This document shows, piece after piece, positions 19,592-41,921 of a stretch of DNA of 46,215 nucleotides (position 1 is the first letter of the stretch; every line of letters starts with the position of its first letter). The notes below the pieces were generated by a model. That model did not search any database and had not been told where the DNA came from. It worked only from the letters and a program-made list of their open reading frames with translations. Source of the stretch: a virus. The DNA is taken from positions 1 through 46,215 of the IMG/VR virus record IMGVR_UViG_3300042556_002013. The stretch is one strand, 5' to 3'. Made by a program: the position numbers and the translations under genes.

Positions 19592-19621
19592 CAAATATAC
19601 AGAAAAACAACATAGTGTCAA
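19592..19621 (-). promoter_or_regulatory. Promoter of the late (virion) operon
   Basis: On the minus strand TTG (19621-19619), a 19-base spacer and TATATTTG (19599-19592) give a perfect Bacteroidota promoter. The ATG of the first gene follows after four bases (CAGC). Confidence 0.85.
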
Positions 19622-19663: not shown

Positions 19664-19855
19664 ATGTTTATCGTTTCTATCGCACTTACAATATTCTGTT
19701 TTGGGTTCATGATGAAAAACTCTATTTACGGCTGTGGCAAGCGAACCTACAAGACTCGTAAGGAGGCTCAGGAACATTGTGACTATGATCAGCAGGTTTA
19801 TATGTGCTGGGACTGTGAAACGTGGCACATAAAAAATAATGAAGAAAATCCTTGA
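19664..19855 (+). CDS. Micro-protein with membrane segment and Zn-ribbon-like motif (63 aa)
   Basis: The first 18 residues (MFIVSIALTIFCFGFMMK) form a membrane segment. They are followed by 'YGCGKRTYKTRKEAQEHC' and 'YMCWDCETWHI'. The pairs CGK...C and CWDC with a nearby His look like a small zinc-binding fold of the type often found in phage micro-proteins. It is the first early gene, four bases behind a -7 box, so a leaderless start is expected. Its last codons overlap the -33 box of the next promoter. Confidence 0.6.
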   Translation: MFIVSIALTIFCFGFMMKNSIYGCGKRTYKTRKEAQEHCDYDQQVYMCWDCETWHIKNNEENP

Positions 19856-19882
19856 CAACCTTGCGTGGTTGTTTTATGTTTG
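19852..19882 (+). promoter_or_regulatory. Promoter of the structured leader/sRNA
   Basis: TTG (19852-19854, overlapping the stop codon of the upstream gene), a 20-base spacer and TATGTTTG (19875-19882) fit the Bacteroidota promoter. Transcription should start near 19887-19889, just before the first hairpin. A small hairpin (ACAACC 19855-19860 with GGTTGT 19867-19872, then TTT) lies inside the spacer and could end the upstream transcript. Confidence 0.65.
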
Positions 19883-19887
19883 CTGAA

Positions 19888-19996
19888 ATATTCCGCCCCC
19901 GTTTGCTAAAGAACCACAGCAACCGGGGGTTGGAAGGTGGTTACAAATACTAACCAACTCAAAAGCTCGCAAAGTGGTTCTTGCGAGCTTTTTTTT
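19888..19996 (+). ncRNA. Structured sRNA / leader RNA with complementary loops, ending in a terminator
   Basis: The predicted transcript of about 108 nt folds into three hairpins. P1 pairs 19896-19907 with 19918-19929 (11 bp, one mismatch) and has a 10-nt loop. P2 pairs TGGTTA (19938-19943) with TAACCA (19951-19956). P3 is the 12-bp terminator 19961-19992. The P1 loop contains GAACCAC (19911-19917), which is the exact reverse complement of GTGGTTC (19974-19980) in the P3 loop; with two flanking bases the match is nine. A loop-loop contact or an antiterminator switch is therefore possible. No promoter is visible between the terminator and the initiator ATG at 20002, so readthrough may control the replication genes. 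Confidence 0.6.
19961..19996 (+). terminator. Strong intrinsic terminator in front of the replication initiator
   Basis: A perfect 12-bp stem (19961-19972 with 19981-19992), eight-base loop and a run of U to 19996. It ends six bases before the ATG at 20002, an unusual position for a terminator. Confidence 0.9.
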
Positions 19997-20001
19997 ATCT
20001 T

Positions 20002-20679
20002 ATGAATACAGGACAAATTGTTAAAGGGAAGCGCAAGCATGACTTTGCTATTATCCCGAACGAAATCTCGCAGTCTAAGGATTTGACAATGGAAGAGAAG
20101 GGTATGCTTTGCTTTCTTCTTTCCCTTCCGGAGAATTGGGTTCTTTACAAAAAGAATCTTTATAATCAGATGCCAGATGCAAAAAACGCAGTAGACAGGG
20201 TGTTTAAGTCCCTGCAAGAGAAGGGGTACATCTTGAGTTGCCGTCAAATAGATTCAAGCACCAACAGGATGGTGGGATGGAACCATATTGTATATGACGC
20301 CCCTCAGCTTTCCCGACATGCGGATTTCCCGATGTCGGGATTTCCCGATGTCGGGGATTTCCGTGAATCGGAAAACCTCGATATATATAAAGAAACAAAT
20401 ACAAACAAAGAAACAATAATATACAAATACGCATTTGAGGATTTTTGGCAAGCATACAACAAGAAGGTGGATAAGAAACAGACCTTAACTGCATGGAACA
20501 AACTCTCTGCTGAGGAACGCGTATTAGCGGTTGAAGGCATGGGTAACCATAAATCGGGTCGCGAAGCCAAGTATTGGAAGGACCCGGTAAGATATCTTCG
20601 CGACAGGAGATGGGAAGACGAAACACAAACAAAAACAATAAAACAAACACCTATTCAAGATGACAACAACACATGGTAA
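20002..20679 (+). CDS. Replication initiator-like protein with iterons in its gene (225 aa)
   Basis: The N-terminal 90 residues read as a winged helix: 'FAIIPNEISQSKDLTMEEKGMLCFLLSLPENW' followed by 'AVDRVFKSLQEKGYILSCRQ'. This is typical of phage replisome organisers and Rep proteins. A linker (residues about 100-140) is encoded by three tandem 16-17 bp repeats. The C-terminal part ('YAFEDFWQAYNKKVDKKQTLTAWNKL' ... 'YWKDPVRYLRDRRWED') matches the short domain found at the end of many DnaD/O-like initiators, thought to bind DNA or the helicase. The ATG at 20002 is chosen over an upstream in-frame codon because the latter lies in the terminator. It overlaps the primase-helicase gene by 20 bases. 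Confidence 0.75.
   Translation: MNTGQIVKGKRKHDFAIIPNEISQSKDLTMEEKGMLCFLLSLPENWVLYKKNLYNQMPDAKNAVDRVFKSLQEKGYILSCRQIDSSTNRMVGWNHIVYDAPQLSRHADFPMSGFPDVGDFRESENLDIYKETNTNKETIIYKYAFEDFWQAYNKKVDKKQTLTAWNKLSAEERVLAVEGMGNHKSGREAKYWKDPVRYLRDRRWEDETQTKTIKQTPIQDDNNTW
20314..20362 (+). repeat. Three tandem iteron-like repeats (candidate origin)
   Basis: Copies at 20314-20329, 20330-20345 and 20346-20362 share CGATGTCGGGATTTCC, the first with some changes and the third with one extra G. They are followed by about 65 bases of A/T-rich sequence (20374-20435), which could be the unwinding element. Iterons plus A/T-rich DNA inside the initiator gene is the plan of the lambda O origin. Confidence 0.6.
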
Positions 20680-26509: not shown

Positions 26510-26539
26510 TTGACTTATTCCACGCGTGTATTATATTTG
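26510..26539 (+). promoter_or_regulatory. Promoter of the overlapping-gene cluster
   Basis: TTG (26510-26512), a 19-base spacer and TATATTTG (26532-26539), with ATG 17 bases downstream. Confidence 0.85.
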
Positions 26540-26556
26540 CCACATAAATAAACGAA

Positions 26557-27030
26557 ATGAACGATCTAGAAAGAAAAAAACGACTGATTGTGACGGCCTT
26601 GGGCGCACAACAAATCTACGCGCAGTGTCACGACGAATGCGTTGACTTAAAATTCTTCAAGCATGACCTGAAGATGCACTCCAAAAACCTTATCACCAAG
26701 CTAGAGCGTGAGCTTATGCCCATCTTTGGTATACTTGGCAACGTAGAGGGTGGAGACGCATACTTAAATGCTATCGAATCTATGGAAATCACGCTTCAAA
26801 ACCTTGCAACCCTTCCTGTAGAGTATTGGGCGCTAGTAAATCAAGGAATTTCGGACATAAAACGACAAATAGATGAAAAAAACCAAGCAAGCGTTGAAGG
26901 AACACCTGATGCAGAAGCTAACGGAGTGGAGGCCACAGATGGATCAGGAGATCATCAGGATAGTAGTGAACGTCAACCTGAACAAGTTGAAGTCAATGAG
27001 GATGGAGGACATAGAGAGCCTATTCATTAA
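26557..27030 (+). CDS. Helical protein with acidic disordered tail (157 aa)
   Basis: Residues 1-110 are helical (MNDLERKKRLIVTALGAQQIYAQ..., 'LITKLERELMPIFGILGNVEGGDAYLNAIESMEIT'). The last 45 residues are rich in Glu, Asp, Gln and Gly and look disordered. That tail is encoded in the region shared with the next gene in another frame, so its composition may be a by-product of overlap. Function unknown. Confidence 0.6.
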   Translation: MNDLERKKRLIVTALGAQQIYAQCHDECVDLKFFKHDLKMHSKNLITKLERELMPIFGILGNVEGGDAYLNAIESMEITLQNLATLPVEYWALVNQGISDIKRQIDEKNQASVEGTPDAEANGVEATDGSGDHQDSSERQPEQVEVNEDGGHREPIH

Positions 27031-27621: not shown

Positions 27622-27746
27622 AGTCAGGTGGCGGAATGGTAGACGCTAATATGGTATGTAACTGGATACGAATATACTTTGCCATATTAATACAATCCAG
27701 CAGATAGTATCTGAAGTATATGCAGGTTCGAATCCTGTCCTGACTA
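27622..27746 (+). ncRNA. tRNA-like element D (class II-like, abnormal anticodon domain)
   Basis: Acceptor AGTCAGG (27622-27628) pairs with CCTGACT (27739-27745), followed by discriminator A. The D arm (GCG 27631-27633 with CGC 27644-27646, loop with GG) and T arm (27722-27738, loop TTCGAAT) are normal. The 75 nt between D and T arms do not form a standard anticodon arm. Instead TAATATGG (27647-27654) pairs with CCATATTA (27682-27689), and CTGGAT in its loop (27662-27667) is the exact complement of ATCCAG (27695-27700), a possible pseudoknot. A 7-bp inverted repeat (GTCACAA 27593-27599 with TTGTGAC 27612-27618) lies just upstream. It ends 16 bases before the next gene. An intron-bearing tRNA-Leu is the alternative. 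Confidence 0.6.
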
Positions 27747-28028: not shown

Positions 28029-28124
28029 AGTCAGGTGGCGGAATTGGTAGACGCTAAGCGTAGTAAGGGTGTAGAAACGACGTATAAATTTTCACCCATA
28101 CAGGTTCGAGTCCTGTCCTGGCTA
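28029..28124 (+). ncRNA. tRNA-like element E (related to D, no anticodon arm)
   Basis: AGTCAGG (28029-28035) pairs with CCTGGCT (28117-28123, one G-U), with discriminator A at 28124. The D arm (28038-28054) is almost identical to that of element D (GCGGAATTGGTAGACGC) and the T arm spans 28100-28116 (loop TTCGAGT). Between them, 45 nt contain only a GGGTG/CACCC stem (28067-28071 with 28093-28097) with a 21-nt loop. No 5-bp anticodon stem with seven-base loop can be drawn. The next ATG is nine bases downstream. Confidence 0.6.
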
Positions 28125-28132
28125 CAAAACAA

Positions 28133-40427: not shown

Positions 40428-41300
40428 ATGAAGAAAGTAATTTGTTGGTGGAGCGGTGGTATAACATCTGCCGTAGCCTGTAAACTCGCAATAGATATGT
40501 TCGGTGCAGACAACTGCGAGGTAATAATGATTGATACAAAGAACGAGCATCCTGATACCTACCGCTTCAAGGACGACTGCGCGAGGTGGTACGGGTTGGA
40601 GATACAAACCATCACGGCAATCGGAAACAAGTACGAGAGCATACAGGACGTTTGGATGCAGCACAAGTCCCTGAACGTAGCCAGCGGGGCAATCTGCTCA
40701 ACCATGCTCAAGCGCAGGGTCAGGGAGAAGTTTCAGAAGGGGGTGGAGTACGACTATCAGGTATTCGGATTCGAGTTTGACAAGAAGGAATTCAATAGAG
40801 CAAACTCGCTCGTGATGAATCATCCCAAGGCCAAGCCGATATACCCGCTACTTATGTTCGGTTACGACAAAGACCATTGCATGAAGGTGGTTCAGGACGC
40901 AGGTATCGAGATACCGGTGATGTACAAGATGGGATTCAGGAATAACAACTGCTTCGGGACTGGCTGCGTACAAGGCGGCATAGGGTATTGGCAGAAGATG
41001 AAGCGGGACTTCCCTGACAAGTTCGACGAGATGGCAAGCATGGAGTGGAAGCTAAGTGAGATGAAGGGAGAGCCTGTGACCATGCTCAAGGATCAGGGCA
41101 AGGACGCCAAGTCATCAGGCAATGTGCTTGTGTTCCTCAAGAAACATCCGGACTATCCGCACCTGAAGTCTATTGACGAGATAGAGGGAAGGGAAGTGGA
41201 GCCATTGTTTGAGTGCAATGGATTCTGCGGCACAAATGATTTGAATGAAAGGAAGTCTACTGAGAACGAGATTAACTACGGTCTTTTTTCTGACCTCTAA
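40428..41300 (+). CDS. PP-loop ATPase / PAPS reductase-like enzyme (290 aa)
   Basis: The N-terminus MKKVICWWSGGITSAVACKLA contains the PP-loop SGGxTS that binds ATP pyrophosphate in PAPS reductases and related AMP-forming enzymes. Cys pairs occur in 'NNCFGTGCVQGG' and 'FECNGFCG' and could hold an Fe-S cluster or zinc. Phages use such enzymes in DNA or tRNA modification (for example DndC-like sulphur transfer). No partner genes of a Dnd system are in the window, so the substrate is open. Confidence 0.75.
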   Translation: MKKVICWWSGGITSAVACKLAIDMFGADNCEVIMIDTKNEHPDTYRFKDDCARWYGLEIQTITAIGNKYESIQDVWMQHKSLNVASGAICSTMLKRRVREKFQKGVEYDYQVFGFEFDKKEFNRANSLVMNHPKAKPIYPLLMFGYDKDHCMKVVQDAGIEIPVMYKMGFRNNNCFGTGCVQGGIGYWQKMKRDFPDKFDEMASMEWKLSEMKGEPVTMLKDQGKDAKSSGNVLVFLKKHPDYPHLKSIDEIEGREVEPLFECNGFCGTNDLNERKSTENEINYGLFSDL

Positions 41301-41498
41301 CCCTTGGCTCACTCAAAAGAAAAGACAGAGAAAAGAAACAAGTCAAGAAGAAACCTAAAGAGAAGAAAAGAAAAAGCCTCCCCCCGTGAAAAACAAACTA
41401 CCCCGCCCCACAAAGGGGCAGCTACCCGATCCAACATACTCGCGTATGAAGTTTGCCTCTTGCACCGACAGGGCTGATTCGGATGGTGGGGTTGGGGT

Positions 41499-41599
41499 AA
41501 AAAAAAGCCCTCGTCTGACGGTACGAGGGCATTTTGATGAGAGAATTAGATTTTCTCATTTCCCACATTGCACCGCCGTCAGACACTGCAATGTGAGAA
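41499..41599 (-). ncRNA. Structured sRNA with complementary loops, minus strand
   Basis: Read on the minus strand, a promoter (41605-41637) is followed by three hairpins: H1 CACATTGCA/TGCAATGTG (41595-41587 with 41572-41564, 14-nt loop), H2 9 bp (41559-41551 with 41545-41537) and H3, an 8-bp terminator GCCCTCGT/ACGAGGGC (41530-41523 with 41514-41507) with eight U (41506-41499). The H1 and H3 loops are complementary over seven bases (41576-41582 with 41515-41521), nine including edges. No frame fits in it. The rest of the 41301-41681 gap holds a purine-rich stretch and a GCCCC/GGGGC hairpin near 41407-41421. Confidence 0.65.
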
Positions 41600-41604
41600 C
41601 GCAA

Positions 41605-41637
41605 CAAATGTATGGCGACCGGAAGACGGAAGTCAAA
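41605..41637 (-). promoter_or_regulatory. Promoter of the minus-strand sRNA
   Basis: On the minus strand TTTG (41637-41634), a 21-base spacer and TACATTTG (41612-41605). Confidence 0.65.
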
Positions 41638-41645
41638 AAAAATAA

Positions 41646-41676
41646 TTGCATTAATAATACACACGAGTTATATTTG
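41646..41676 (+). promoter_or_regulatory. Promoter of the 41682 operon
   Basis: TTG (41646-41648), 20-base spacer, TATATTTG (41669-41676). The ATG follows after five bases. It is divergent from the sRNA promoter. Confidence 0.78.
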
Positions 41677-41681
41677 TAAAT

Positions 41682-41921
41682 ATGAAAAACAAAAAGGTAG
41701 ACTTTTACCAAGTTCCCAAGAACGAATGGCAGATGCCCATCGAGAAGGGATACAAGATGGCCTGTTGCGACTGCGGACTTGTCCACGTCATGGACTTCAT
41801 GGTCATTGATAACGACACGGAGAAGCCGATCAAGAACGGCAGGGCAATCATGAGAGCCAGACGGCACGAGACGCTGACCAAACAACTTAGAAAAGAAATG
41901 AAAAAAAAAGGTAACAAATGA
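41682..41921 (+). CDS. Small Cys-containing phage protein with CCDCGLVH motif (79 aa)
   Basis: 'WQMPIEKGYKMACCDCGLVHVMDFMVI' and the Arg-rich 'AIMRARRHETLTKQLRKEM' match a family of short proteins frequent in phages, in which C-x-x-C-G-L-x-H probably binds zinc. Function unknown. Overlaps the next gene by ATGA; the message is probably leaderless. Confidence 0.65.
   Translation: MKNKKVDFYQVPKNEWQMPIEKGYKMACCDCGLVHVMDFMVIDNDTEKPIKNGRAIMRARRHETLTKQLRKEMKKKGNK

Follow-up and report, generated by a model that had tools for sequence, protein, structure and literature searches.

Why should a phage RNA of about 100 nt carry, in the loop of its first hairpin, the complement of the loop of its own intrinsic terminator? 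The window, by which we mean the whole stretch of 46,215 nt analysed here, raises this question twice, once on the minus strand (RNA2) and once, at 19.9 kb, on the plus strand (RNA1); the features concerned are listed in Table 1. Judged by comparison with related phages, RNA2 is a small-RNA gene of an undescribed phage class in which the loop of a promoter-proximal hairpin is predicted to pair with the loop of an intrinsic terminator. We regard it as nearly certain that the RNA2 gene and its loop-loop contact are real.

Table 1. Positions of the features discussed, counted from the first letter of the window
Feature	Position	Strand	Basis
RNA1 promoter	19852..19882	+	pattern match
RNA1, architecture of RNA2, leader of the replication-initiation gene	19887..19996	+	homologues; covariation in 23 sequences
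RNA1 loop 1, AGAACCAC	19910..19917	+	covariation
RNA1 terminator-loop partner, GUGGUUCU	19974..19981	+	covariation
Replication-initiation (wHTH) gene	20002..20679	+	phrog_270, E 1.6e-18
Conserved noncoding element, ~190 bp, 3' of the RNA2 terminator in most relatives	41303..41497	.	sequence identity
RNA2, ~102 nt, start inferred from the -7 box	41499..41600	-	fold z and 21 distinct homologous sequences
RNA2 terminator U8 tract	41499..41506	-	sequence
RNA2 terminator hairpin, 8 bp	41507..41530	-	fold; core stem 100% paired in alignment
RNA2 terminator-loop kissing sequence, CCGUCAGA	41514..41521	-	covaries with loop 1
RNA2 hairpin 2, small, variable	41537..41559	-	fold
RNA2 hairpin 1, with 8-nt loop	41560..41599	-	fold and alignment
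RNA2 loop 1 kissing sequence, UCUGACGG	41576..41583	-	loop covariation
RNA2 promoter, Bacteroidota type	41605..41636	-	pattern match
-7 box TATATTTG in the divergent promoter serving the gene at 41682, marking the left edge of the shared cassette	41669..41676	+	sequence comparison

A sequence-only reading of this DNA had proposed a minus-strand Bacteroidota promoter followed by about 100 nt that fold into two 9-bp hairpins and an 8-bp terminator with eight U residues. The promoter (TTGAC-N19-TACATTTG), the length, and the terminator were found as proposed; the first hairpin proved to be longer (13 bp, a G.G mismatch, and 2 more bp), and the second has only ~6 bp and is weakly conserved, or misaligned, in the alignment. 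The pattern TTGAC-N17..21-TAnnTTTG has just 4 matches in the window against 0.14 expected, one of them being the RNA2 promoter and another the RNA1 promoter. The two further strong promoters of this type lie at 26510-26539 (+), where there is an ORF at 26557, and at 19592-19621 (-). Among RNA2 homologues the -33 and -7 boxes are kept in nearly all, with a variable spacer. The flavobacterial -7 box consensus TAnnTTTG occupies positions -12 to -5 (PMC9723704), which places the probable start of RNA2 at ~41600, the first base of hairpin 1, with the promoter immediately 5' of this hairpin. The RNA2 fold has a minimum free energy of -45.7 kcal/mol (z = -6.75), and no shuffled sequence was equally stable. 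In hairpin 1, 98.7% of the alignment cells are paired, with double changes at 4 pairs. Loop 1 and the terminator loop match perfectly over 8 bp, and the nine-base complementarity noted earlier is exact and contiguous (GUCUGACGG/CCGUCAGAC), eight bases lying within the loops and the ninth being a terminator stem base.

Relatives were located through neighboring proteins, RNA searches of their records, and short patterns in IMG/VR. RNA2 homologues were found on ~30 IMG/VR contigs and comprise 21 distinct sequences from the profile search plus divergent variants. Their loops occur in 13 versions, among them UCUGGUAG/CUACCAGA, UCUGGUAC/GUACCAGA, UCUGGCUGG/CCAGCCAGA, UUGGAGAG/CUCUCCAA, UGUAGAGAG/CUCUCUACA, and UCUGGCCGG/CCGGCCAGA. 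We looked for homologous regions with unpaired loops and found none: each version pairs over at least 7 nt with its own partner (13/13), versus only 15/156 swapped combinations. As the contact is a pseudoknot, beyond what covariance models hold, pair counts were used instead of such a model. In a 10-sequence alignment, 100% of the cells of the loop-loop helix are paired, slid registers reach 51% at most, and changes on both sides occur at 5/8 pairs. Double-change cells, whose counts are only partly corrected for the relatedness of the sequences, number 16 in this helix versus 5.0 expected (0/500 shuffles) and 24 versus 7.6 expected when the stems are included. Since all cells pair and compensatory double changes are found at five of the eight positions, the loop-loop contact is under selection and has been maintained through compensatory change. 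The loop versions show several pair types per position, with four at positions 6 and 7; this and the swap test over haplotypes are difficult to account for unless pairing is selected.

The 19.9-kb RNA had been thought to follow the same plan in unrelated sequence, and it does: sequence similarity between RNA1 and RNA2 is undetectable, the RNA2 profile gives no match to RNA1, and the RNA1 loops are complementary in their own way (AGAACCAC/GUGGUUCU). Its loop-loop helix has 95.7% paired cells and 22 double-change cells at three positions among 23 sequences. The U-tract of RNA1 is separated by 5 nt from the ATG of the replication-initiation gene, next after which comes a primase/helicase gene. 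Inside the replication-initiation gene, three 16-bp direct repeats (TTTCCCGA...) are followed by an AT-rich stretch (20309-20430), which together are likely a lambda-like origin.

The breadth of the class was assessed with a scanner that is blind to sequence and requires a terminator, an upstream hairpin, and at least 7 contiguous Watson-Crick pairs between their loops. In the records of 15 relatives and the window, 24/221 distinct terminators had such a match, compared with 1.6 when terminator loops were permuted; an earlier scan of all fetched loci under a slightly different rule gave 58/313 versus 3.8. Chance had been judged unlikely from the two RNAs of the window, and these counts agree. 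A TAnnTTTG box lies upstream in 22 of the 24 matches, and the two without it are probably chance. One kissing RNA was found 0-17 nt upstream of the initiator gene in 15/15 genomes or large parts scanned, a count that sets aside one partial piece (G028). The RNA2 family is also present in 8/15 genomes, in seven by the scanner and in G002 by homology, the latter member having a G-U pair. The genes downstream of initiator-linked members are replication-initiation or DnaD-like genes, the N-terminal types of the initiators number at least five, and the RNAs themselves include sequence-unrelated versions such as GGACUAGC/GCUAGUCC, GUACGAGC/GCUCGUAC, and AGUAAGGAAU/AUUCCUUACU. Behind the leader RNA, the N-terminal HTH types of the initiator gene are swappable (MNTGQIVK, MHNQYSIIP, MLMISCDNH, MKYINIDAEF, and MAQGNIRKK), and the C-terminal part is often similar among initiators that differ in this way.

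The location 0-17 nt before a replication-initiation gene applies to RNA1 and the other initiator-linked members and not to RNA2. Because no minus-strand gene follows RNA2 in the window, this location is a usual and not a defining trait of the class. A contact that is kept by matched changes and is found mostly before replication genes suggests that these are viral control RNAs of a class not yet described, so the suggestion of a common class whose terminator loop contacts the first hairpin was, if anything, too modest.

The class extends to cultured phages of Flavobacterium, Cellulophaga, and Tenacibaculum, in which the loop contact is found, in unrelated sequence, before replication genes. 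BLASTN of RNA1 or RNA2 against cultured phages gave zero matches, and these members were reached solely by way of the primase/helicase protein, in the intergenic region that precedes the operon encoding it. Leaders consisting of a TATATTTG-like box, a 5' hairpin, and a terminator precede the replication operon in the elemo phages, phi19:1/phi10:1, Nekkels_1, mumin/filifjonk/tooticki, phi18:3, and Tenacibaculum phage JQ. A 7-10-nt loop match is present in 8/9 cultured flavobacterial phage leaders (shuffle P, 0.0005-0.013 each), cases that are partly non-independent, as elemo A/F, mumin/filifjonk, and phi19:1/phi10:1 are related. In Maribacter phage Panino the terminator before the replication genes is present and the loop match is absent. 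The loops were first chosen by eye and minimum-energy folds computed afterwards; in most leaders these folds place the match inside or overlapping the apical loop of the terminator, and the predicted hairpin 1 has the expected form in JQ, phi19:1, and mumin but is not clean in elemoF and filifjonk. Two compensatory double changes distinguish mumin from filifjonk (GUGGAACG/CGUUCCAC versus GUGAGACG/CGUCUCAC). Several leader terminators from different genera (L190, L193, L196, L200, and L203) have a small internal loop of similar makeup (GGAT/TGAA or GGA/GAA) just below the kissing loop, possibly forming tandem G.A pairs. The cultured relatives of the window phage infect Flavobacteriia. Promoter type and relatives place the host of the window phage within the Bacteroidota; no carriers were found among GTDB genomes.

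RNA2 had also been described as stand-alone. This holds for the copy in the window, which has no gene downstream on the minus strand and whose divergent neighbor varies among relatives (at least 10 different ORFs), but not as a rule for the class: RNA1 precedes the initiator gene, and in L144/L160 an HTH gene starts immediately after the U-tract of an RNA2-family member. An association of RNA2 with one particular neighbor gene was considered and rejected, as the divergent neighbors change. Since the cassette that RNA2 makes up together with its two-way promoter has been placed beside many genes, RNA2 itself must be what is kept. Comparison of these contexts shows the window RNA2 to be a detached, free-standing version of the class. 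The divergent neighbor in L003 is a PAPS-reductase-like gene; the window carries a phage-borne PAPS-reductase-like gene at 40428-41300 (phrog_424, E 3.8e-46).

The ~190-bp element 3' of RNA2 is 96-99% identical among most RNA2 carriers, in which the flanks differ, and 85-90% identical in L138 and L142. It is G-rich on one strand, adjoins a polypurine tract, and usually lies beside the RNA2 cassette. A protein-coding role was rejected, no frame being kept open, and fold z scores of -0.29 and -0.39 lend no support to a structured RNA. In L152, L143, L158, L147, and L184-L188, the element is replaced after the RNA2 terminator by an unrelated conserved stretch (TACTACGGTCTTAAAAGTG...) that carries an inverted repeat, GAATGA/TTCATT.

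What would such a contact do? We propose that hairpin 1 captures the loop of the terminator as it emerges and that this capture would set the efficiency of termination in the leader. The majority of transcripts would stop as a stable RNA of ~100 nt, and a controlled minority would read through into the replication genes, the read-through product being the initiator mRNA. Because each RNA carries both loop partners, a finished RNA could pair in trans with a copy still being transcribed and so exert feedback on termination, much as P4 CI RNA acts on the P4 replication operon. The stand-alone copy in the window would yield only the ~102-nt RNA, which may act in trans on RNAs whose loops match its own or via a bound protein; with no gene to attenuate, attenuation in cis cannot be the whole function of RNA2. 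We assign this mechanism as a whole, comprising loop capture that sets termination, feedback in trans, and a stand-alone copy acting in trans, a probability of about 0.4. The spacing between hairpin 1 and the terminator, read from RNA2, RNA1, and the cultured-phage sequences, is ~14-35 nt, often with a small hairpin, and would permit an intramolecular contact; from sequence, a dimer is equally possible. Loop octamers are no more common elsewhere in their own phage genomes than are the octamers of other versions, and within the window the octamer occurs in RNA2 alone, so that no trans target inside the phage was found. This lack of enrichment favors self-recognition or a protein partner over other phage mRNAs. 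A wider generalization, which we hold to be doubtful, is that of a widespread class in which the terminator loop is the site recognized by its own 5' hairpin, the terminated product senses its own concentration via the loops of nascent copies and so adjusts replication-gene dosage, and stand-alone copies serve as modulators in trans or determine exclusion between related phages.

The contact could instead be purely architectural, closing the RNA into a compact, nuclease-resistant ring on which a phage or host protein is assembled, and would then play no part in termination. Its retention in stand-alone copies fits this reading, as do the conserved primary sequence of the hairpin 1 stem and the predicted strength of the kissing helices (-10.6 to -16.2 kcal/mol), but it leaves unexplained why nearly all other members directly precede replication-initiation genes, and we consider it somewhat unlikely. 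An attenuator acting only in cis would fit the observations that RNA1 and all initiator-linked members stop just before an ATG and that the RNA2 family, too, precedes an HTH gene in L144/L160. RNA2 of the window would then be a decaying leftover of gene loss; a leftover would be expected to lose its promoter, stems, and covarying loops, yet stand-alone copies retain them in many phages, and there is little probability in this account. Equally little attaches to an origin transcript that primes or activates replication near its own 3' end. RNA1 does lie ~310 nt upstream of the three 16-bp repeats and AT-rich stretch in the initiator gene, and the element 3' of the window RNA2 is G-rich and conserved as DNA, but a strong terminator ends the RNA before these elements, and in several phages the element is absent after an RNA2-family RNA.

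The rapid variation of the loops between phages, with 13 versions, is reminiscent of specificity determinants and would suit antisense seeds for host or phage mRNAs, masked by internal pairing until a target is met. This idea is improbable, given that seed matches are not enriched in the same phage genomes and that the octamer of the window is confined to RNA2. Loops of a DNA inverted repeat serving as a protein-binding site would covary identically without involvement of RNA pairing; here, however, the half-sites are ~60 bp apart, each sits in an RNA hairpin loop with covarying stems, and they nearly always lie between a promoter and a U-tract, which makes this explanation highly improbable. 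The same applies to the analogy with phi29 packaging RNA put forward in the sequence-only reading, according to which the loops would link individual RNA molecules to form a ring on the packaging motor. Complementary loops within one sequence are indeed a feature of pRNA, and intermolecular pairing is conceivable. However, the members that are not stand-alone adjoin replication-initiation genes and not terminase or other packaging genes, a phi29-type motor was not identified, and the hairpin-plus-terminator arrangement of RNA2 differs from the pRNA fold and has no Rfam match. The packaging idea was dropped on the basis of gene context.

To our knowledge, little has been established about RNA control in Bacteroidota phages, and the present findings add a previously unlisted, evolutionarily well-supported RNA class that, in many of them, lies where the replication operon begins. 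Class members are present in cultured phages and can thus be tested at once. Should termination be set by the loop contact, no more than two loops and a terminator would be needed for a simple cis/trans switch, which would also offer a candidate basis for exclusion specificity between phages.

No description of the class was found in the open literature searched. At gathering threshold, the Rfam 15 covariance models gave only tRNA in the window and only tRNAs in the cultured-phage leader regions. One tRNA match in the window spans 125 nt (27622-27746), possibly owing to an insertion in a tRNA-like gene, and ARAGORN places a tRNA-Leu at 28029-28125. The best subthreshold matches, Yfr10 for RNA2 (30.5 versus 43 bits) and Trp_leader for RNA1 (25 versus 41 bits), were rejected as terminator or hairpin similarity.

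Loop-loop antisense control is familiar from plasmid replication, where ColE1 RNAI/RNAII and CopA/CopT have fast-changing kissing loops beside replication genes. Those systems pair an RNA with its antisense, whereas in the present class both partners are on one strand of one RNA. The pRNA of phi29 likewise has two complementary loops in one phage RNA, but it differs in fold and gene context, and its contact involves no intrinsic terminator. Leader RNAs are already known to control phage genes through termination or read-through, P4 CI RNA and Gifsy-1 IsrK being two examples (PMC4825925). From a single promoter, the IsrK prophage leader produces a read-through mRNA as well as a short RNA that ends at a terminator, and the short RNA acts in trans on the mRNA (PMC4825925). 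The pairing of IsrK, however, is not between a loop and the terminator loop, and it controls anrP/antQ; with the Rfam isrK model, RNA1 reaches 15.7 bits, the threshold being 50. P4 CI RNA resembles the class in its small size, in its origin from an untranslated leader that belongs to a phage replication operon, in the complementary segments within the same transcript (seqA/seqC), and in that RNA-RNA pairing controls termination before the replication genes (PMC4825925). No sequence relation between the two was seen. P4 CI RNA is processed out of a longer transcript and has its pairing partners elsewhere, whereas the class RNA is bounded by a promoter and a terminator of its own and pairs two apical loops, of which one belongs to the terminator; outside targets comparable to seqA and seqC were not found for the class, its octamers not being enriched elsewhere. 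In their logic, P4 CI RNA and Gifsy-1 IsrK are nonetheless the closest known counterparts of RNA2 and RNA1, and we infer an autoregulatory terminator/leader function for the class.
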